DNA from: a virus
Strand: one strand, 5' to 3'
Virus record (IMG/VR): IMGVR_UViG_3300028115_000121
Span: 1-23,347 of that record
Length of the DNA stretch: 23,347 nt
This document shows positions 9,048 through 21,072 of the stretch, piece by piece (position 1 is the stretch's first letter; every line of letters starts with the position of its first letter). The notes under the pieces were generated by a model that did not search any database, was not told where the DNA came from, and saw nothing but the letters and a program-made list of their open reading frames with translations. Both the position numbers and the translations under genes were made by a program.

Positions 9048-12000
9048 ATGGCAATAAACTTAAACACACCTCCGTATTACGATGACTTTGATAGGACTAA
9101 AGGGTTTCATCAGATCTTATTTAAGCCAGGTGTTGCTGTTCAAGCAAGGGAACTAACCCAGCTACAGTCTATCCTGCAAAATCAGATTAAGTCATTTGGC
9201 GATAATGTATTCAAGAATGGTGCTTTGATCACAGGTGGTGATCAGTCATTTGACCGGCAATATTGCGCTGTAAAGCTAGCTGCTTCAGCAAATGATTCTG
9301 TGTTAGGATTGGTTGACCAAGAAATATACGGCACAGAATCCGGCATGAAAGCTTTAGTTGTAAACGCAACTCAAGCAACAGACGGTGGTGATCCTCCTAC
9401 TCTATTTGTAAAATATCTAAACTCTGGTAAAAACAAAGAAAGCGGCGGCTTTTTAGCTAATGAAGTTGTTTACAACAAAAATAAAAGTACACGTGTTACT
9501 ACAGCTGCATCGGCAGTTAATGCAATCGGTAATGCATATACGATTACTTCTGGAATCATTTATAACAATGGTGACTTTGTTTACTTTGAAGACCAAACGG
9601 CTATTCTATCTAAATATACTAAAATCGGTTCAGCTATTGTCGGGTTTGATGTAACTGAATCAATTGTTACTTTTACAGAAGATTCATCTTTGCTTGATCC
9701 TGCAGACGGATCATATAACTTCGCTGCACCTGGTGCAGATCGACGTACAGTAACGTTAAATTTAACAAGTCGTCCGTATACTACTTTGGACATTGATGAT
9801 CCTAACTTTATTGAGGTTGCTAGAATTCAAGCTGGTAAAGTTATCTCTTCAAAGAAAACTACTGAGTATAATATACTTGGAGATGAGCTTGCTCGCCGTA
9901 CATACGACGAATCTGGCGATTATGTAGTTCGTCCATATGATATTAAAATTAGCGAACACTTACGCACATCATTAAGCGTTAATGATGGTTACTACCTTAC
10001 AACTGAAGGCGGTGATACAAATAAGTTTATAGCTAAAATTTCTGCAGGTAAAGCTTATGTAAAAGGTTACGAAATAGATAACCTAAAGAATTCTATTATC
10101 CCAATGGATAAGGCAAGAGATTCAGCTGCAGTAACATCTGGATCGGTTTATGTTCCATTTGGAAATTATGTAACTGTTACAAATCTTTCCGGTATTCCTG
10201 AAAACATTCAAGCATTACCGATTATTGAGCTTCGAGATCAATTTACTGCAACCCCAGGAAGTCCTGCTGGTTCAGTAGTTGGTACTGCTCGTATACGTCA
10301 TATAGAATTTTTATCTGGAGATCCAGGAACTACTACTGCGCAATATAACATATTCCTCTTTGATATTAAGATGAATTCTGGTTATTCATTTACGAATAAT
10401 GTCAAGCAGTTCTATTATAACAATGCAACCTATGCTGGTGACTTTACTGTCGATGTTAAACAAACGTTATCACTTTTAAGTGGTACTGTTTCAACTACTA
10501 ATGCTTCTTCAGCGCTAGTAGGTTCTGGTACTCGCTTTGAAACACAATTAACTCTTGGTGATTACATTAACATTGCTGGTAATACGCATCGAATTACTGA
10601 TATTATAGATGACTTCTCTGCAACAATCAGTCCTGTTGCATCGGCCGATCTTGCTGGTCAAACTTTTAATATTGTAAAAACAGTAATTAATGATACCGAT
10701 AAAAACTCATATATCTTTAATATGCCAGTCGATATCGTAAAGACTATCGATCCTACTGGAGCTGCAACAAACTATTCAACGCGTAGATACTATGAAAGAT
10801 CGTTGACTGCAGGTATTGTTGAGGTAAATGCTGGAGTAAACGAGACATTCTCTTCATACTCTACTGATAATTATCAAATGTATGATGCAGCTGGTAATGC
10901 AATCGATTTGACCGGTGCTGTTTCGGCTTCAGTTGGAAATACCGTATTAACTGTAGATATTTCTAGTCAAGGCTATAGCAATGAGACTGTAATCCTTGTT
11001 GCTACTATTTCAAAAAATAGTTCCGCAGCAGATAAGAAAAACAAAACTCTAGTTACAAATTCAACTGTAACATTCTTGAACGAAGCTCAAGCGATTGCAC
11101 AAATACTGTCATTAAGCAAGGCAGATATTTATCGTATAGTTTCTATTAAGATGACAACAGCTGGTGCGTTTGGTGATCCTTCATATAACAGTGATTCTGA
11201 AATTGATATCACGAACCGATACACTTTAGATAATGGACAGAAAGCAACATACTATGGCTTAGGATCTTTACGTCTTAAAAATAATTCGGCAGCTCCTACT
11301 GCACCAATCAAAATCACATTTGATTACTTTACTCATGGTGCTGGAGACTACTTCTCAGTTGATTCATATGGCGATATCGATTATAAAGATATTCCTACGC
11401 TCATCCTTGGTGGTACTGAGTATGTACTACGAGATTGCTTAGACTTCCGTCCACGCATTAATGATGCTGGTACTGGTTTCTCTGGTACTGGTTCTAGCGT
11501 TGGCGAATTCCCTGATTTCGAAAACGATATTATCACTTCATACGAATATTACTTACCTCGTATTGATAAGATTGTTCTCAACTCAGAAGGTAGAATTAAA
11601 GTTGTAAAAGGTAAGAGTGAATATAATCCTAAAGAGCCTAAGACACCAACTGATTCAATGCCTCTTTATACGTTGAAGCAACAGCCATACGTATTTGACT
11701 TATCAAAAGACATTGAAGTACTTAAGATTGATAATCGTAGATTTACAATGCGCCAGATTGGTAAGTTGGAATCACGAATCAAGAATCTAGAATACTATAC
11801 AAGCCTTAATCAGTTAGAAGTCGATACACAAAATTATCAAATTAAAGATATCGACGGACTAGATCGGTTCAAGAATGGCTTTGTTGTAGACGCATTCCGC
11901 GGTCATGGTATCGGTGATGTTTATAATCCAGATTATGGTTGCTCTATTGATTATAATAAGAGCGAGCTTCGACCAATTTGTGCTACACATCCTCTTAAAT

Positions 12001-14285
12001 TAAAAGAAGTTGCACAAACACGCGCAGAGCGGATATCAGCTGGCTATCAATTAACTGGCGATCTATATACTCTTCCTTATACTGAAGAGCGCTTTATTAC
12101 AAATAACAAAGCAAGTAAAGCCGTTAATGTAAACCCATATAACATTGTATCATTCAAAGGTATTATGACTGGTACACAGTCTGATATATGGTTTGATGAG
12201 CGACGCGTTCCAGATGTTTATAGAAACGAAGAAGGTAACTATGATATAGTATTGGCTGAATCACAAGCCAAAGGAACATTTGGTTGTGTCTTTGGTTCTT
12301 GGGAAACTATACAATTTGGAATAGAAGGTGGAACTGTAACTGAAAAAACCCGTTCTGGAACAGAATATACAATTCGTGAACAGGTTTCTACTGAAACGCG
12401 TAATGACGTAGTTGTATCTAGTTCTGTTATTCCTAAGATGCGAGATGTAAGTATTAACTTTAAAGCATCAGGCTTGATGCCAGATACTAGACTATACGTA
12501 TTCTTTAGTAATATTAACGTTACTGCTGATTGTAAAATGACAACTAACTTCGTTGATTATTTAGATGAAGATAATCCAAATTTAGCAAACGTATACGATC
12601 TATATGGTGAAGTTGGTCGAATGATTGTTAGTAATTCAGAAGGTGTATGTGACGTCACATTTAATTATGTTGCATCTAAACATGACCTTAATACTGGATC
12701 ACACGTTCTAAGACTATCTGATGACCCTGATGGTAATCCATTATTTGAATTTACTTCAGCTCAAATGACATTCACTTCATCGGGCGAGCTAAGAAATGTT
12801 GCGAATGAAATTGTTTCAACGCGAAATGCTGTGTGTGATATACGCGCAATTGAAGAAACTTCTAACAATACTAATTGGTATGAAGCTGGTAAAGTAGCAG
12901 ATCAACAGTGTAATGGATTTGATTTACAACGCAAATTCTATGATGGTGCTGGTGGAACAACTGACTGGGTTACCGAAGAATTAAATTCAACTATATGTGG
13001 ATATAGCGCTGGTAGCGGTAGTACTGGTGGTGGTGTAATTGCAAATCCGGATCCACCTACATGTCCGGCTGCTGGCACTGAACTTGATACGTTCTGTGAT
13101 GATGTAACTGGCAACTTAATGAGAATTGTTGCTGATGGTTCATGCGGTACCAGTACTTCTATTAAAGAAGCTGGTGCATGCGTACCTGATAATCCATGTT
13201 CACCTGCCGGAACATTGAAGAGTACGTATTGCCAAGGCGGTACTGATCCTGTGGATATATACTATGACGGAACATTTAACGCAGTTACACAAACATGTGG
13301 AACATATGAACAAGCTGTCACTGGACTAACACAAGCTCAAATTGAAGCACAATGTCCTCCTGCTACGGTTCATCCACCAAAAGGTACGTACTTAGGATAT
13401 GAGTGTAATCAACCTGGATTTATAAAGGTTAATTATTATGCTGATGGTAACGGTGGCCAATATGAGGTTACTGAAGGTGTTGGCCATGTTGATTGTGGAT
13501 ATGTGCCACTGGAAGATTTACAAACCCAAATTGACGCTGGCGATACAACAATTACGCAAGCTGAATTAGATCTAGCAGAAACATATGATCCAAACGATGC
13601 GCCTGCTGCAGGTACTCATATTCGATATGGTTGTCAGGGATATGATTACTATGAATATATTGCTGATGGTAGCTGGGGAGAGACTGACTCACTTATTGAA
13701 AGCGACGCAGAATTCTATTGCGGTAAGCCTGTATTAAATGACGTACTTATATACACGTTTAATGATTTAGATGCTGATGATGACGATGATGGCGATTTAG
13801 ATCCACCACGTGCGCAAATAGTAGATAGTATTGGAATTGTTGGTGGTATCTTTAACTATGCTACAGGTCGTAATATGACAGCTGCCGAGCGTGAAGAAGC
13901 AGCTGCATATCTAGATGCTGTCGGAGTAACTAACGCAGATTTTGAAGCGGCGCTCTCAGATGGAAACAACATCTTTGCAGATGGTGGAATAGACGCTTTT
14001 TCAAATCCAACCGGAATGAACGATTCAGCTAAAAAGGTTTACGAAGTAATTAAAGTGCTAGGAAATACTGTAACGGCAAGAGGCATTGGTGCAGATTCTG
14101 ACGCATCAATAACCAACTATATAGAAGAGGTTGGAACTGGTCAGTCAGGACTCTCTGCAGGTGATATATTAGCAAACCAAGCGATTGGTGCATTAACTGC
14201 AGTAAATACTAATGATGTACGCGTTGAGGGTTCATGGGGCGCGAATGCAATTGAGCAGCTGTTGCTTAAAGATAGTTTGATTTAA
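9048..14285 (+). CDS. Giant virion structural protein (DUF4815-type) with cysteine repeats
   Basis: At 1745 residues this is the largest gene here. The N-terminus (LNTPPYYDDFDRTKGFHQIL, FKPGVAVQARELTQLQSILQ, GDNVFKNGALITGGD) is the recognisable start of DUF4815 phage structural proteins, found beside baseplate genes in marine T4-like phages and probably peripheral baseplate or fibre-anchor components. Middle parts include VLRDCLDFRPRIND (about 795-808) and a helical stretch with MRQIGKLESRIKNLEYYTSL (about 901-920). Residues about 1340-1561 carry four cysteine-containing repeats. They are followed by an acidic run DLDADDDDDGDLDPP and then an alanine-rich, probably helical C-terminus. The start at 9048 has AGGAA upstream and a late promoter. 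The function is inferred from family and position. The C-terminal modules look acquired relative to the core. Confidence 0.8.
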   Translation: MAINLNTPPYYDDFDRTKGFHQILFKPGVAVQARELTQLQSILQNQIKSFGDNVFKNGALITGGDQSFDRQYCAVKLAASANDSVLGLVDQEIYGTESGMKALVVNATQATDGGDPPTLFVKYLNSGKNKESGGFLANEVVYNKNKSTRVTTAASAVNAIGNAYTITSGIIYNNGDFVYFEDQTAILSKYTKIGSAIVGFDVTESIVTFTEDSSLLDPADGSYNFAAPGADRRTVTLNLTSRPYTTLDIDDPNFIEVARIQAGKVISSKKTTEYNILGDELARRTYDESGDYVVRPYDIKISEHLRTSLSVNDGYYLTTEGGDTNKFIAKISAGKAYVKGYEIDNLKNSIIPMDKARDSAAVTSGSVYVPFGNYVTVTNLSGIPENIQALPIIELRDQFTATPGSPAGSVVGTARIRHIEFLSGDPGTTTAQYNIFLFDIKMNSGYSFTNNVKQFYYNNATYAGDFTVDVKQTLSLLSGTVSTTNASSALVGSGTRFETQLTLGDYINIAGNTHRITDIIDDFSATISPVASADLAGQTFNIVKTVINDTDKNSYIFNMPVDIVKTIDPTGAATNYSTRRYYERSLTAGIVEVNAGVNETFSSYSTDNYQMYDAAGNAIDLTGAVSASVGNTVLTVDISSQGYSNETVILVATISKNSSAADKKNKTLVTNSTVTFLNEAQAIAQILSLSKADIYRIVSIKMTTAGAFGDPSYNSDSEIDITNRYTLDNGQKATYYGLGSLRLKNNSAAPTAPIKITFDYFTHGAGDYFSVDSYGDIDYKDIPTLILGGTEYVLRDCLDFRPRINDAGTGFSGTGSSVGEFPDFENDIITSYEYYLPRIDKIVLNSEGRIKVVKGKSEYNPKEPKTPTDSMPLYTLKQQPYVFDLSKDIEVLKIDNRRFTMRQIGKLESRIKNLEYYTSLNQLEVDTQNYQIKDIDGLDRFKNGFVVDAFRGHGIGDVYNPDYGCSIDYNKSELRPICATHPLKLKEVAQTRAERISAGYQLTGDLYTLPYTEERFITNNKASKAVNVNPYNIVSFKGIMTGTQSDIWFDERRVPDVYRNEEGNYDIVLAESQAKGTFGCVFGSWETIQFGIEGGTVTEKTRSGTEYTIREQVSTETRNDVVVSSSVIPKMRDVSINFKASGLMPDTRLYVFFSNINVTADCKMTTNFVDYLDEDNPNLANVYDLYGEVGRMIVSNSEGVCDVTFNYVASKHDLNTGSHVLRLSDDPDGNPLFEFTSAQMTFTSSGELRNVANEIVSTRNAVCDIRAIEETSNNTNWYEAGKVADQQCNGFDLQRKFYDGAGGTTDWVTEELNSTICGYSAGSGSTGGGVIANPDPPTCPAAGTELDTFCDDVTGNLMRIVADGSCGTSTSIKEAGACVPDNPCSPAGTLKSTYCQGGTDPVDIYYDGTFNAVTQTCGTYEQAVTGLTQAQIEAQCPPATVHPPKGTYLGYECNQPGFIKVNYYADGNGGQYEVTEGVGHVDCGYVPLEDLQTQIDAGDTTITQAELDLAETYDPNDAPAAGTHIRYGCQGYDYYEYIADGSWGETDSLIESDAEFYCGKPVLNDVLIYTFNDLDADDDDDGDLDPPRAQIVDSIGIVGGIFNYATGRNMTAAEREEAAAYLDAVGVTNADFEAALSDGNNIFADGGIDAFSNPTGMNDSAKKVYEVIKVLGNTVTARGIGADSDASITNYIEEVGTGQSGLSAGDILANQAIGALTAVNTNDVRVEGSWGANAIEQLLLKDSLI
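13065..13730 (+). repeat. Four cysteine-containing repeats (PxxGTxxxxxC...DG...C)
   Basis: Units begin near 13065, 13203, 13374 and 13602 with PAAGTELDTFC, SPAGTLKSTYC, PPKGTYLGYEC and PAAGTHIRYGC. Each continues with an aromatic/beta segment and an ADG or YDG motif (RIVADGSCG, DIYYDGTFN, NYYADGNGGQY, EYIADGSWG), and closes with a second cysteine (GACV, TCG, DCGY, FYCG). Loop lengths differ, so units range from about 43 to 76 residues. I recall similar units in fibres and peripheral proteins of other marine phages. Paired cysteines suggest disulfides or metal sites in each unit. Confidence 0.75.
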
Positions 14286-16351: not shown

Positions 16352-17320
16352 ATGTCTGTAGCATTAACACTTCGCAGTGTAAAAGGTACCCGGCTATTAA
16401 ATAGCGAGGTAGATACCAACTTTACTAACATTAGTACAGAGCTTGATCTAAAAGCTCCTATCAATAATCCGGTATTTACTGGTTCAGGCCAGTTTACTGG
16501 TGCTTTGACTGTTGATGGTGACCTAGAAGTATCTGGTACAACTACGTTTGTTAATGTACAAAATCTTGGTGTTGCTGATACCATGATTTACGTGAATCAA
16601 CGCACCCAGGGTACTCTCACTGGAGCGGTTGGCGATGGAACAAATGTCGTTTATACTGTCGATAATAACTATGTAGTTGGCGATTTCCTTGTTGTTCAAG
16701 GAGTAACTCCTGCATCTTTTAATGTCTCTGGTGCAGAGATTATTGCATCTGATGCTACTTCAGTTACTATTGCATCTACTAATACAGATACGTATGTTTC
16801 TGGTGGTATTACGTATGCAAAGACTTACGTTAATCTAGACTTAGGATTAGCTGGTGGTTATAACACTGATGGTACTGCTGCTGGATATGCCCACACGGGC
16901 GTGTTCCGTGACGCTACAGACGATGGTACGTGGAAGTTTTATCAAGGATATACTCCTGAGCCTTCTGCAGGTATCGACATTGATACAAGTCACGTTAGCT
17001 TTGCATTAGCTCCAATTGCTGCATCAACAGTATCAGCAACTGACTTTAATTCTACATCAGACGTATCATTAAAAACAAATATTTCTATTATAGAAAATGC
17101 ACTTTACCTTATTAAAAATATAGAAGGTGTTTCATTCCAATGGAAAGATTCTGGTAAAGAATCCATTGGTGTTATTGCACAACAAGTTGAAGCTGTTGTT
17201 CCTGAGATCGTTAATACCGGATCTGATGGAATTAAGCGTGTATCTTATGATTCATTAATTCCAATTCTAATCGAGGCAGTTAAAGAGCTATCAGATAAAA
17301 TAGATAATCTTAATAAATAA
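16352..17320 (+). CDS. Tail fibre with C-terminal self-cleaving S74 chaperone domain
   Basis: This 322-residue protein starts with a fibre-type head (LTLRSVKGTRLLNSEVDTNF) followed by APINNPVFTGSGQFTGALTV, a repeat unit common in phage fibres. The last ~90 residues are an intramolecular chaperone (Peptidase_S74/endosialidase type): TSDVSLKTNISIIENALYLI, VSFQWKDSGKESIGVIAQQV, EAVVPEIVNTG and a final helix with ILIEAVKELSDKIDNLNK. By analogy with endosialidase (Ser911/Lys916) the dyad is S236 and K241, with the same +5 spacing. The domain would trimerise the fibre and then cut itself off before S236, leaving a mature chain of about 235 residues. TAGGA precedes the ATG. It is short for a receptor-binding fibre, so it may be a tip or adaptor. 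Confidence 0.9.
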   Translation: MSVALTLRSVKGTRLLNSEVDTNFTNISTELDLKAPINNPVFTGSGQFTGALTVDGDLEVSGTTTFVNVQNLGVADTMIYVNQRTQGTLTGAVGDGTNVVYTVDNNYVVGDFLVVQGVTPASFNVSGAEIIASDATSVTIASTNTDTYVSGGITYAKTYVNLDLGLAGGYNTDGTAAGYAHTGVFRDATDDGTWKFYQGYTPEPSAGIDIDTSHVSFALAPIAASTVSATDFNSTSDVSLKTNISIIENALYLIKNIEGVSFQWKDSGKESIGVIAQQVEAVVPEIVNTGSDGIKRVSYDSLIPILIEAVKELSDKIDNLNK

Positions 17321-17355: not shown

Positions 17356-17736
17356 ATGGCAATAAAGGTATCAGGCGTAACGATTATTGATGATAATCGT
17401 AATGTCGTTAATGCTAACGTCAAAAGCAAACAGCAAGATTTAGGTTCAATTTCTGGAGTTAACGCTGTTAATATCAATAATGGCGAAACTATCATTGCAA
17501 CCATAACTGGAAATACTACATTTACAGTATCAAATCTAGTTAGTGGATCCGTTAATACACTTTTCTTTTTGCTAACAAATCCTGGTGCTGGATCAATTAC
17601 CTGGCCGCCTACTACTACTTGGGATAAGGGAAACTATCCAGTTCTCAATACTTCTGGTAAGACTCTCATCATATTAGAAACCTACGATAACGGTGCTAAC
17701 TGGATCGGAGTACAGGCCTGGCGGCAAAACGCATAG
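17356..17736 (+). CDS. Small fibre-associated beta protein
   Basis: This 126-residue protein begins MAIKVSGVTIIDDNRNVVNA, the fibre N-terminal pattern 'xVSGxxVIDxxRxxxN' common in phage tail modules. It continues with ITGNTTFTVSNLVSGSVNT, LTNPGAGSITWPPTTTWDKG and TYDNGANWIGVQAW. The second part matches a recurrent phage fibre domain with the strand order GNTTFT, FxLxLTNxG, ITWP and DxGxxWxG. Function is inferred only as virion structural. A strong ribosome-binding site (GAAGGAG near 17341) fixes the start. The 35-base gap after the S74 fibre holds no clear terminator. Confidence 0.65.
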   Translation: MAIKVSGVTIIDDNRNVVNANVKSKQQDLGSISGVNAVNINNGETIIATITGNTTFTVSNLVSGSVNTLFFLLTNPGAGSITWPPTTTWDKGNYPVLNTSGKTLIILETYDNGANWIGVQAWRQNA

Positions 17737-17745
17737 GATAATATC

Positions 17746-19224
17746 ATGTCACGTAGATTTTGGATTGGCACTCCTAAGGGCCAAAACACAACAGCTGATA
17801 CCTTTTTTGATACGTCGAGACAAACGATTTATCAGGTAAATACTTCAGCACCTACAACATACCCATCATTTTTTGATACATTTTATAATACAGCTGTACC
17901 AACTGGCTATATTATTTCGACTACATACGATGCTATTACTAATTATGTTACAAATTACTTTTATGGCGTAATTACATCACATCCTACTGCTGATATTCGT
18001 GATACTTTATATTACTATCCAGGTGAACAAACATCTTATATTGTATCAACGACTGTTACTCGGCCGACGTATATAGGATACTATGTTCCTACTGGATATT
18101 CTGTGACAGAGGATGTGTATAGGCCGACATCTATTGATGCTCCGTACAGTGGTATAACTCTGTATACTGACATTAGAATTACTCAGTATTCTAATCCGAC
18201 AAACTATCCTGGATTTTTTTATCCAGCAACTACTACCTTTCCGACTGACTATACCTATAGCTCTAACGCGTATGGGTGTTATTATTTTAATGCTGATGGA
18301 AGTCCAGCTGGTCAAGATGGAGTTCCTCCTGGATGCTCAATTGTAGGATGCGACCCGCCGTCATACAACTATGCGAATGGAAGTGCTCCTACATATTTTG
18401 ATACTTGTCTAACCACGGCTGGCTCTACTACATATCTAACACATATATATGTGGGTCAAAATACTACTTCAACAGTTATTTTTAACGGTCAAAGCGCACC
18501 AGATATTGGTGTTTTTGATTGCTATCCTGATGATTCTCCAGACGTAATAGCGTTCTGTCAAGATCCACAAAATAGGTGCGAGCCATGTCAAGGATATTAT
18601 CAGACGACATATGAGACAGATGTCGGCTATGATCAAGTTACATCGTATCCAGCTCCTATTACAACATGCTATGCTACATCATCACTTACCTCTGTGTCTT
18701 ATTTACAGAGTGAATGCTATAACTGTAGTGTTGATTGTGTCGCTAGTGTAAATACAACATCATCATATCAGGCATATCAAGCACCTTATTCAGGTATTAC
18801 TTACTATGATGTTGCAACAATTGTAGGATACACGCCGGTGTCAACAATATATCCGTATATTTCGTATTATGATACGTATATAGGTACTACGACATATACT
18901 GCATTTAGGGATACGATATATGTAACAAGTCCACCTACAACATATCAGCAGGATACTGAATATACTCGACCAACGAATGATTACTTTTATCCCGTTCCGA
19001 CAGAATATACTCGTGTTACAACGTATGAAACAGCTTATCCGACTAGTAATCCAACATCGAAAATCACGCAATATCCAACTGATGTTGCAACAACAATTGA
19101 TACTGCTACACCAACGAGCAATCAAACAAGTGTAGACACTACTGTTATTACTTCATGGTTAACTGATAATGACGTAACTACAACATATCAAACTAGTAGA
19201 TCGACTACTTGGTTTACACAGTAA
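17746..19224 (+). CDS. Thr/Tyr-rich putative fibre or adhesin protein
   Basis: This 492-residue protein is not assigned to any family. Its composition is extreme: threonine and tyrosine dominate, mostly as TTY, TxYP and YxT alternations (for example PTTYPSFFDTFYNTAVPTGY), with very few Lys or Glu. The alternation suggests a long, exposed beta fibre. Three zones can be seen: a T/Y-rich N-terminal part (about 30-170), a middle part with more than ten cysteines (about 176-335, such as CQDPQNRCEPCQGYY and CYNCSVDCVAS), and a T/Y-rich C-terminal part (about 340-492). The segment APYSGIT occurs at residues 132 and 346, suggesting duplication of the flanking zones. The first residues MSRRFWIGTPKG weakly recall 'RYWVGG' fibre N-termini. 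AGGAT precedes the ATG, and the next gene looks like a fibre assembly chaperone. Confidence 0.6.
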   Translation: MSRRFWIGTPKGQNTTADTFFDTSRQTIYQVNTSAPTTYPSFFDTFYNTAVPTGYIISTTYDAITNYVTNYFYGVITSHPTADIRDTLYYYPGEQTSYIVSTTVTRPTYIGYYVPTGYSVTEDVYRPTSIDAPYSGITLYTDIRITQYSNPTNYPGFFYPATTTFPTDYTYSSNAYGCYYFNADGSPAGQDGVPPGCSIVGCDPPSYNYANGSAPTYFDTCLTTAGSTTYLTHIYVGQNTTSTVIFNGQSAPDIGVFDCYPDDSPDVIAFCQDPQNRCEPCQGYYQTTYETDVGYDQVTSYPAPITTCYATSSLTSVSYLQSECYNCSVDCVASVNTTSSYQAYQAPYSGITYYDVATIVGYTPVSTIYPYISYYDTYIGTTTYTAFRDTIYVTSPPTTYQQDTEYTRPTNDYFYPVPTEYTRVTTYETAYPTSNPTSKITQYPTDVATTIDTATPTSNQTSVDTTVITSWLTDNDVTTTYQTSRSTTWFTQ

Positions 19225-19239
19225 ATAAAGGAGCATGTA

Positions 19240-19746
19240 ATGCTATACGCAAGAATTAATAAAGAAACAGATGAAGTTTTAGAATTCCCTATAACAGAAG
19301 GTCAACTTAGAAATGCTTTAGTTGGTACAACATTGCCAACTAAAATTACTGAGATTGCATTGGTTGGTACAGACTATGTTCAAGTACCTCCGCTTGTGTC
19401 TAGTGAGATTCCAGTTAAGTCGAGTATGACGCACACAGCAACACCGACGACTGTAACAAAAGATCCAGAAACTGGCAAATGGGTAAGACAATACGAGTTA
19501 GTAGAAGTAGATGAAAAAATACAATTGGATCGTGTTGCCCTTAAATGGAAATCTATCCGCGAGCGCCGTGACGAAGTATTGAAGGAAATCGATTGGAGAA
19601 TTCTGCGAAATGCCCGTGAAGTTCGCCTTGGACTTACTCCAACAGATGACATTGCAGTACTTGATGCTAAGGCACAAGAGCTTGCAGATCTGACTGATAC
19701 TTATGTTGATCCATATGAAATAGATATTAGCATAATTAAGATATAA
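19240..19746 (+). CDS. Tail fibre assembly chaperone-like protein
   Basis: This 168-residue protein starts MLYARINKETDEVLEFPITE. Its C-terminal half has the chaperone signature ALKWKSIRERRDEVLKEIDW then RILRNAREVRLGL and a helical ELADLTDTYVDPYEID (about 105-160). A W..IR..RD..L...DW core is typical of phage tail assembly chaperones (Phage_tail_APC group), which help fibres trimerise or attach and are not found in the virion. A strong AAGGAG lies just before the ATG. It follows the Thr/Tyr-rich protein by 15 bases, so that protein is the natural client. Its similarity to fibre-gene partners is at motif level only. Confidence 0.65.
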   Translation: MLYARINKETDEVLEFPITEGQLRNALVGTTLPTKITEIALVGTDYVQVPPLVSSEIPVKSSMTHTATPTTVTKDPETGKWVRQYELVEVDEKIQLDRVALKWKSIRERRDEVLKEIDWRILRNAREVRLGLTPTDDIAVLDAKAQELADLTDTYVDPYEIDISIIKI

Positions 19747-19784: not shown

Positions 19785-20852
19785 ATGGCTACTGAAGTAA
19801 AACGCAATAAGGATTTCTCTCCATACGAAATTTATACTGGTGCTGATCCTGAGAAAAAAGAAAAGACATTAAAGAAAGAAGAGGAAGTAGCTCAACCGCG
19901 CCTTGCTTCTCAATTGATGTCTGAAGAACAAACCTTTAATGAGACTAAAATTGGTCCTTATGCAAAAAGGTCTGCACGGAATGATTGGGCTACTTCACAG
20001 GAAGGTCTTTTAAGAAGTAAATGCCCTCCGTTTTATTATACTAGTTATGATGTATCAGCAAATCAAAATAATAATTTCTCTGAGTTTACTTACACTGAAT
20101 TTCCTGGTGCTGGCTTATATACGTCAACGCAGTCTAGGGAAATTAACTGTAGATTAATTGATTTTGCATCTAAACAAAAGTCTGGTAAAGCCGGTAAAGA
20201 TGCACTAGAAAAGTTTATTGCTGCGTTTTCAGACAAATATGTTATGGATGAAGTCGATGAACAATATCAAAACTTAGATAATATTATTTTTATGCCTGGA
20301 CATAACTTACTCGACTTGGCTGACATTGATCAAGTGCTCAGAGTAATCAATGAAACGGACGATGCATATATTAAGCCACATCCATTAACAAGTAATGAAG
20401 CTATTCATGGTATTGCTGGACGTGTTGGATGGAATAAGATAATACCTAAATACGTATCTGGTGCTAAGCTGCTTGAGAATTGTAAAAATGTTTATACTAC
20501 CACGGCTTCAGAATTTTCTATTACTGGAGCTGCTCTTGGTAAAAACATACACAATATTTCTAAATATCAGTCAGAGGGTGCAGGCGTATATCAACCATTT
20601 AGTAGAGTGACTACTATTGCGCAAAGGAAGCATGGTATACAAGAAGCAAAAACTTTACTTGGTAATATCTTAGCATGCAAATGGTCCGGAGTTTTCTTTG
20701 AGTTTCAAGACGATGTTCCAGAACGAATGGACGCGTATTATGCTAAAGCTTTAGAGTTGAGAGAACTTTATAGACCGCTTTCATGTGGTCGTGGCGATCT
20801 AGATAAGGCCGTTAAAAAAGTTCCAGTTAATCAAGTTCCAGTAAAGAAATAG
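19785..20852 (+). CDS. Uncharacterised protein with capsule-synthesis/GT-B-like motifs
   Basis: This 355-residue protein begins with a charged, probably disordered segment (DPEKKEKTLKKEEEVAQPR, about 21-39). The central part reads LDNIIFMPGHNLLDLADIDQ, then a strand and K197-P-H-P200, and later NVYTTTASEFSITGAALGKN with S242-E243. A KPHP motif followed some 40 residues on by a (T/S)-SE-F/A...LGK motif is the pattern of capsule polysaccharide proteins of the KpsC/KpsS type and related GT-B folds that use nucleotide sugars. The C-terminus has ACKWSGVFFEFQDDVPERMD then AYYAKALELRELYRPLS. I recall no characterised phage homologue. It may glycosylate or otherwise modify virion or host surface, or be a degenerate structural version. 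AAGG precedes the ATG; no TATAAATA was found, only an AT-rich leader. Confidence 0.5.
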   Translation: MATEVKRNKDFSPYEIYTGADPEKKEKTLKKEEEVAQPRLASQLMSEEQTFNETKIGPYAKRSARNDWATSQEGLLRSKCPPFYYTSYDVSANQNNNFSEFTYTEFPGAGLYTSTQSREINCRLIDFASKQKSGKAGKDALEKFIAAFSDKYVMDEVDEQYQNLDNIIFMPGHNLLDLADIDQVLRVINETDDAYIKPHPLTSNEAIHGIAGRVGWNKIIPKYVSGAKLLENCKNVYTTTASEFSITGAALGKNIHNISKYQSEGAGVYQPFSRVTTIAQRKHGIQEAKTLLGNILACKWSGVFFEFQDDVPERMDAYYAKALELRELYRPLSCGRGDLDKAVKKVPVNQVPVKK

Positions 20853-20880: not shown

Positions 20881-21072
20881 ATGATAGAAGGTAAATCTAA
20901 TCCTGAAATAGCAAAGAGAATTGCTCTTTGTGGTAGATGTGTACATCTTGTACCAAAGATAAACGTCTGCAAAAAATGTGGCTGTTTTATGCCAGCCAAA
21001 ACTAGATTAACCGGAGCAAAATGTCCGATTGGAAAATGGGATGTTATCGTCACAGATAAAAAAGAAGAATAA
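20881..21072 (+). CDS. Small zinc-ribbon protein (CGRC...CKKC type)
   Basis: This 63-residue protein contains C17-G-R-C20, C30-K-K-C33 and further C35 and C48, with CGCFMPAKTRLTGAKCPIGK near the end. Two CxxC knuckles separated by nine residues imply a zinc ribbon. The 'CGCFMxxKTRxxxAKCPxGKW' tail is a pattern I recognise from small hypothetical proteins of phages, often near fibre genes; it resembles DUF6171 but this is from memory. Function is unknown; nucleic acid or protein binding are both possible. It has its own late promoter and is followed 11 bases later by a fibre-type gene. Confidence 0.7.
   Translation: MIEGKSNPEIAKRIALCGRCVHLVPKINVCKKCGCFMPAKTRLTGAKCPIGKWDVIVTDKKEE

Follow-up and report, generated by a model that had tools for sequence, protein, structure and literature searches.

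What is the Thr- and Tyr-rich protein encoded at positions 17746-19224 of this viral DNA, and is it the acceptor of the glycosyltransferase-like enzyme encoded a short distance downstream? The analysed window comprises 23,347 nucleotides (positions 1 to 23,347 of IMG/VR record IMGVR_UViG_3300028115_000121) and is part of the baseplate and tail-fibre region of a T4-like myovirus. The genes relevant to this question are:

16352-17320, plus strand: tail fibre protein with a Peptidase_S74 (endosialidase-type) intramolecular chaperone domain, giving the context for a tail location
17356-17736, plus strand: fibre-tip-domain protein, ending 10 bp before the tetrad gene begins
17746-19224, plus strand: tetrad-repeat, Thr/Tyr-rich, Cys-centred protein of 492 aa, candidate virion glycoprotein and acceptor
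19240-19746, plus strand: small tail-fibre-assembly-like protein of 168 aa, between candidate acceptor and candidate transferase
19785-20852, plus strand: GT-B glycosyltransferase-like protein of 355 aa, candidate dedicated transferase
20881-21072, plus strand: Cys4 (zinc-ribbon-like) mini-protein, PHROG 13558

The ORF at 17746-19224 is intact from ATG to TAA, and its 492-aa product consists of 19.9% Thr and 12.8% Tyr. In agreement with the original prediction, Lys and Glu are scarce (2 and 8 residues, respectively) and a Cys-rich centre is enclosed by two T/Y-rich flanks, with all 12 Cys residing within residues 178-331 and both arms being Cys-free. The centre is 97% conserved among close relatives and may form a folded hub that is stabilised by disulphides or metal. 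The AlphaFold2 monomer (pLDDT 34) gives no fold, does not resolve the Cys centre and is uninformative. Elsewhere in the window, the C-terminal region (about 12.9-13.9 kb) of the large tail protein encoded at 9048-14285 (PHROG 358) is likewise rich in Cys and contains repeated 'GT....C.G' modules.

The arms had been described as alternating Thr and Tyr. The autocorrelation of Thr peaks at lags 4, 8, 12 and 16, and the lag-4 value (z 4.7) was matched in none of 1000 composition-preserving block shuffles. The regularity of Thr is thus beyond chance, but a strict T/Y alternation is not what is found; the unit is a four-residue tetrad with the consensus T-[S/T]-[R/Y/F/W/V]-[P/T/S/N]. Among relatives the lag-4 z reaches 10.5, and it is not significant in some of them (L041, L052 and Cr30 among others). 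Thirteen aligned relatives, each 22-40% identical to the protein of the window, share invariant columns that are mainly Thr, many of them four residues apart (T15, T19, T23, T27 and T479, T483, T487, T491), together with two Cys, one Arg and one Trp. The N-terminal motif reads SRRFWIGTPKG and the C-terminus is conserved as T..TTTYQTSRSTTWFTQ. Between close relatives Thr is 82% conserved and is most often replaced by Ser (125 of about 290 changes), an exchange that is common in any protein. The third slot of the tetrad, which is that of Tyr, may be occupied by Arg, Tyr, Phe, Trp or Val. This pattern favours Thr over Tyr as the essential residue, although the conservation would also suit a beta-structured fibre. 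Since the constant residue of the family is Thr and the slot of Tyr accepts Arg, Phe, Trp or Val, Tyr is not favoured as a modified residue. Of the suggestion that the adjacent glycosyltransferase modifies Thr or Tyr, the second target thereby loses favour, while O-modification as such is strongly backed by genetic linkage and by the fold and motif of the enzyme, as discussed below.

The heptapeptide APYSGIT does occur at residues 132 and 346, in different codons and 642 bases apart, and had been taken as the trace of an old internal duplication. However, such a repeated 7-mer arises in 3% of Markov shuffles, and the alignment of the N-terminal with the C-terminal arm (score 104) is no better than that of tetrad-shuffled sequence (95 +/- 12; score reached by 107 of 500 shuffles). 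An ancient duplication is therefore not needed and was rejected.

The expectation that the protein belongs to no described family held up: the profile libraries of Pfam, PHROGs and NCBIfam contain no match for it, and thus none to known tail fibre families. Of ten tetrad relatives scanned, only that of KVP40 matches a PHROG (PHROG 30374, 'unknown function'), whose member KVP40.0254 is likewise a tetrad-type protein. A tblastn search of 50,697 phage records yielded no match, and locus searches with the single protein returned as true match only the identical contig IMGVR_UViG_3300024301_000133. N-terminal matches to L004-L008 were false, and a match to a Providencia straight fibre (E 1) concerned a different protein. 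The failure of homology search and the blindness of BLAST are explained by the low complexity of the tetrad sequence. In the open-access literature searched, no description was found of the family or of its pairing with the transferase.

The tetrads could by themselves constitute a regular, beta-rich shaft, perhaps trimeric and intertwined, with Thr and aromatic or Arg residues alternating on one face and with the transferase acting elsewhere or only sparsely on this protein. Such a bare structural fibre agrees with the lag-4 and lag-8 regularity, with the placement of T and R/Y/F/W at i, i+2 and i+4, with the conservation of the Cys residues (97%) and with the location of the gene directly after a fibre-tip gene. 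Moreover, Thr is a beta-prone residue. The absence of a fold in the AlphaFold2 model weighs against it weakly. The stronger objection is that a bare fibre leaves unexplained why, in podoviruses and myoviruses alike, a transferase is found with tetrad proteins while other Thr-rich ORFs are without one. We regard this explanation as doubtful, yet as the best of the alternatives.

Because the tetrad protein itself cannot be traced by BLAST, the family was entered through the gene at 19785-20852. In cultivated phages, relatives of this gene adjoin Thr-rich ORFs, namely Lullwater gp41 (MTVSRRLRIGGKRWTSFDTAYDTVFPTSQPTTRNTTK...), KVP40.0254 and the corresponding ORF of Cr30. A search with the transferase alignment identified 34 viral contigs, and a T/S/Y-rich ORF lies within 1 kb upstream of the transferase homologue in all 30 with usable upstream sequence, a set that includes near-duplicates and thus represents fewer than 30 independent lineages. 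Among the other same-strand ORFs in the transferase loci, 0 of 237 are comparably T/S/Y-rich.

Two reciprocal tests retrieved tetrad ORFs without use of the transferase. With a DNA pattern for the C-terminus of the family, the transferase was found 414-561 bp downstream in 24 of 25 evaluable members (own count). With the pattern TSRNT(xxxT)4, 45 different ORFs of 100 aa or more were obtained. Of the aromatic/basic tetrad ORFs in this set, 11 of 15 evaluable have the transferase within 2 kb, or 13 of 15 if distances of 3.1 and 5.4 kb are allowed, compared to 0 of 20 Thr-rich ORFs without tetrads ([PN]T dipeptides and other repeats; Fisher p = 3.3e-6 against 11/15). The [PN]T-dipeptide phage proteins (L111, L147, L153) resemble the tetrad proteins in being very Thr-rich repeats, but carry Thr at every second residue, have no aromatic/Arg slot and lack the transferase in all 13 evaluable cases (0/13). 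Extremely Thr-rich [PNQ]T dipeptides (TPTQTPTNT...) occur in L111, L112, L135, L147, L153 and L173, in ORFs of up to 4595 aa and without a transferase.

The pair of tetrad protein and transferase recurs in unrelated phages, i.e. myoviruses of the window type, Caulobacter podoviruses (Lullwater, Quill_5.2, BL198), Cr30 and Vibrio phages of the KVP40 type. In the Vibrio phages D484, F86 and D479 (L020:3925-4476, L176:2029-2634 and L177:1906-2448), the tetrad ORF upstream of the transferase is un-annotated and tiny genes have been called instead. Exceptions are found in both directions. For the tetrad proteins of L077 and L140/L146, the 4-8 kb that follow downstream contain no transferase. Conversely, the neighbour of the transferase in the Stenotrophomonas phage DLP_6 is a long, S/T-rich fibre that lacks tetrads. 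The ORF of this fibre (L097:4394-6988, continuing in L019:3-1655) is un-annotated, spans well over 1300 aa and is located directly upstream of the transferase homologue. The tail regions of the T4-like phages HTVC008M, Mosig, pf16, P-HM2 and BUCT-ZZ01, which are not listed as transferase carriers, contain no comparable ORF. A scan of genome contigs gave one match, on a contig assigned to a Bacteroidetes assembly, where the transferase is followed by a gene that by eye reads like a 2-oxoglutarate/Fe(II) oxygenase (L098:1841-3091); this gene could hint at hydroxylation coupled to modification.

In cassettes of the myovirus type the order of genes is fibre-tip domain, tetrad protein, assembly-like protein, transferase and Cys4 mini-protein. 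Outside the Vibrio phages, the fibre-tip domain ends 0-13 bp before the tetrad gene at nearly every locus; this was established for 22 loci with a sequence search, and for Cr30 and the Lullwater type by inspection. The gene that follows in the window, at 19240-19746, had been called chaperone-like, which is borne out to the extent of a weak tail-fibre-assembly match (PHROG 4912, E 5e-5), Pfam Phage_tail_APC reaching just E 0.16. This gene of about 165 aa is kept in the myovirus-type cassettes and is absent from the Lullwater podoviruses, in which a tail fibre gene is followed by the tetrad gene, which in turn abuts the transferase. In phages of the KVP40 type, the pair is found outside this tail context, beside queuosine-type genes, and the N-terminal domain of the tetrad protein differs from that of other members. 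In KVP40.0254 and its Vibrio relatives (L017:4079-4672), this domain reads 'TGAIS...YYRGGG.VP...IPTSG.I' and is fused to the tetrad array. The Cys4 mini-protein of the window follows the pattern C..C...CxxCGCFMPAK.RL..A.CPIGKW, is near DUF6171 and is encoded next to or near the transferase in most cassettes. Judged from these sequences, the tetrad proteins are a widespread unnamed family within a conserved tail-gene cassette.

The enzyme encoded at 19785-20852 matches PHROG 26179 (E 5e-54), recorded as 'unknown function'. Its earlier designation as glycosyltransferase-like is confirmed by the AlphaFold2 model (23 aligned sequences), which predicts a GT-B fold with a pLDDT of 82, most of residues 61-330 exceeding 85 and the core exceeding 90. 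Structural re-alignment ranks KpsC first (6mgc; Z 11.3, rmsd 3.9, 225 residues), followed by WbbB (Z 10.2), KrkA (Z 9.3) and the polysialyltransferase 5wcn (Z 9.3). Values of Z 8-11 for a predicted model show a shared fold and not a shared function. Among viral predicted structures, the close matches are uncharacterised phage proteins. Sequence profiles match weakly, with KpsC as the best PDB entry (E 0.059), Capsule_synth at E 0.006 and Pfam A-2_8-polyST (PF07388, GT38 type) in 3 of 23 members (best E 0.034).

The enzyme carries the motifs PGxN (171-174), K-x-H-P (197-200) and S-E (242-243), and K197, H199 and P200 are invariant in all 42 sequences of the family, in agreement with (K/R)XHP. 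The latter is a CMP-binding motif common to CMP-using sialyl- and Kdo-transferases, which is conserved in GT99 and GT107 and has Ser as its first residue in KrkA, GT140 (PMC12887879). Kdo transferases furthermore have a QXXXD motif with a nucleophilic Asp (PMC10148158, PMC12887879). Across the 42 sequences, neither a conserved Q nor an invariant D of this motif is present, the end of the equivalent strand being PGxNLL(D). For this reason we do not assign the enzyme to GT99, GT107 or GT140, but regard it as a separate GT-B family with a CMP-activated sugar as its probable donor. A search of 12 phage records, of which five are deposited genomes of isolates, revealed no CMP-sugar synthetase encoded by the phage, and the donor would therefore be host-made.

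Thus, the phage enzyme resembles the retaining beta-Kdo transferases KpsC (GT107), WbbB (GT99) and KrkA (GT140) in its predicted GT-B fold (Z 9-11 over 209-229 residues), and shares the K-x-H-P motif with KpsC and WbbB. It differs from the Kdo transferases in the absence of QXXXD, in a negligible sequence similarity and in its linkage to a virion-type protein instead of a polysaccharide locus. The bacterial sialyl- and polysialyltransferases (GT38 and others) likewise have K-x-H-P, as do the CMP-sialyltransferase families (GT29, 38, 42, 52, 80) in the form (K/R)XHP, and 5wcn matches in fold, but all sequence matches are very weak and the acceptor context is different.

KpsC and WbbB, the nearest structural matches, have polysaccharides as their substrates, which together with the weak Capsule_synth match would suit an enzyme directed at a host surface glycan (LPS or capsule, for receptor masking or superinfection exclusion) or at another phage component, merely travelling with the fibre gene. 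This is improbable, given that the transferase sits in a late tail-gene cluster in most phages and that the linkage tracks tetrad composition across unrelated phages and not a given fibre. Highly improbable is a nucleotide-sugar enzyme of the 2-epimerase-type GT-B, no transferase at all, beside a tetrad protein that is a simple low-complexity linker: UDP-GlcNAc 2-epimerase has the top Foldseek E-value (8.5e-5), but was demoted upon re-alignment (Z at most 8.4 over 120-205 residues, the Kdo transferases coming first), and the cytidine-type K-x-H-P is invariant in the family.

The occurrence of the transferase beside tetrad proteins in dozens of phages suggests that these phages decorate a part of their own particle with sugar. 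We consider it somewhat probable that the tetrad protein is a mucin-like, tail-associated virion protein of this T4-like myovirus, O-glycosylated by a phage-encoded transferase that probably depends on a CMP-sugar. Its arms, arrays of T-[ST]-[aromatic/Arg]-[P/N/S/T] about a Cys-stabilised centre, would be modified at their regularly spaced Thr and Ser residues, before or during assembly, by the cytosolic GT-B enzyme that the phage supplies from one gene further downstream. The donor would be a cytidine-activated acidic sugar of the host, CMP-Kdo or a CMP-nonulosonate being the likeliest. The arms would thereby become a mucin-like brush that is stiff and charged, is located close to the tail fibres and may serve solubility, protease protection, shielding or adhesion. 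This O-glycosylation model is supported by the linkage from three directions, the recurrence of the pair, its position, the fold and K-x-H-P motif of the enzyme and the conservation of Thr. Against it count the tetrad proteins without a transferase (L077, L140/L146), the DLP_6 transferase without tetrads, the absence of QXXXD, the lack of a phage CMP-sugar synthetase in the 12 records and the commonness of Thr-to-Ser exchange.

A comparable arrangement exists in the serine-rich-repeat adhesins, in which an S/T-rich, low-complexity acceptor is encoded beside a dedicated Gtf transferase. The tetrad pair has such an acceptor beside its own transferase, but is phage-encoded, has a strict four-residue repeat and employs another type of transferase. 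A reading of the sequence reveals no export signal or cell-wall anchor in the tetrad protein, the N-terminus (MSRRFWIGTPKGQ) being without a hydrophobic segment and the C-terminus being TSRSTTWFTQ.

Taken together, a family of proteins not described before and a transferase family without assignment appear to form the phage counterpart of a dedicated system for protein glycosylation. PHROG 30374 and PHROG 26179, which comprise the same tetrad type and enzyme family and have no function, linkage or mechanism on record, would thereby gain named partners. The proposal that the neighbouring transferase modifies the tetrad protein has become specific and testable, and is strongly supported by the comparison of sequences; virion glycosylation would be testable in laboratory strains. 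Should the proposal hold, glycoprotein appendages overlooked by annotation would be carried by many phages from the environment and by some in culture (KVP40 and Caulobacter phages among them), as the tetrad ORFs are of low complexity, hidden by the BLAST low-complexity filter and sometimes un-annotated, and the enzymes would form an additional family of transferases that act on peptides and probably draw on a CMP-sugar. More tentatively, the system may be a self-contained phage O-glycosylation, in which a new GT-B family adds a host cytidine-activated ulosonic acid (Kdo or nonulosonate) to a mucin-like tail protein; myo- and podoviruses of aquatic bacteria would then bear a sugar brush made from their host's own surface sugar.
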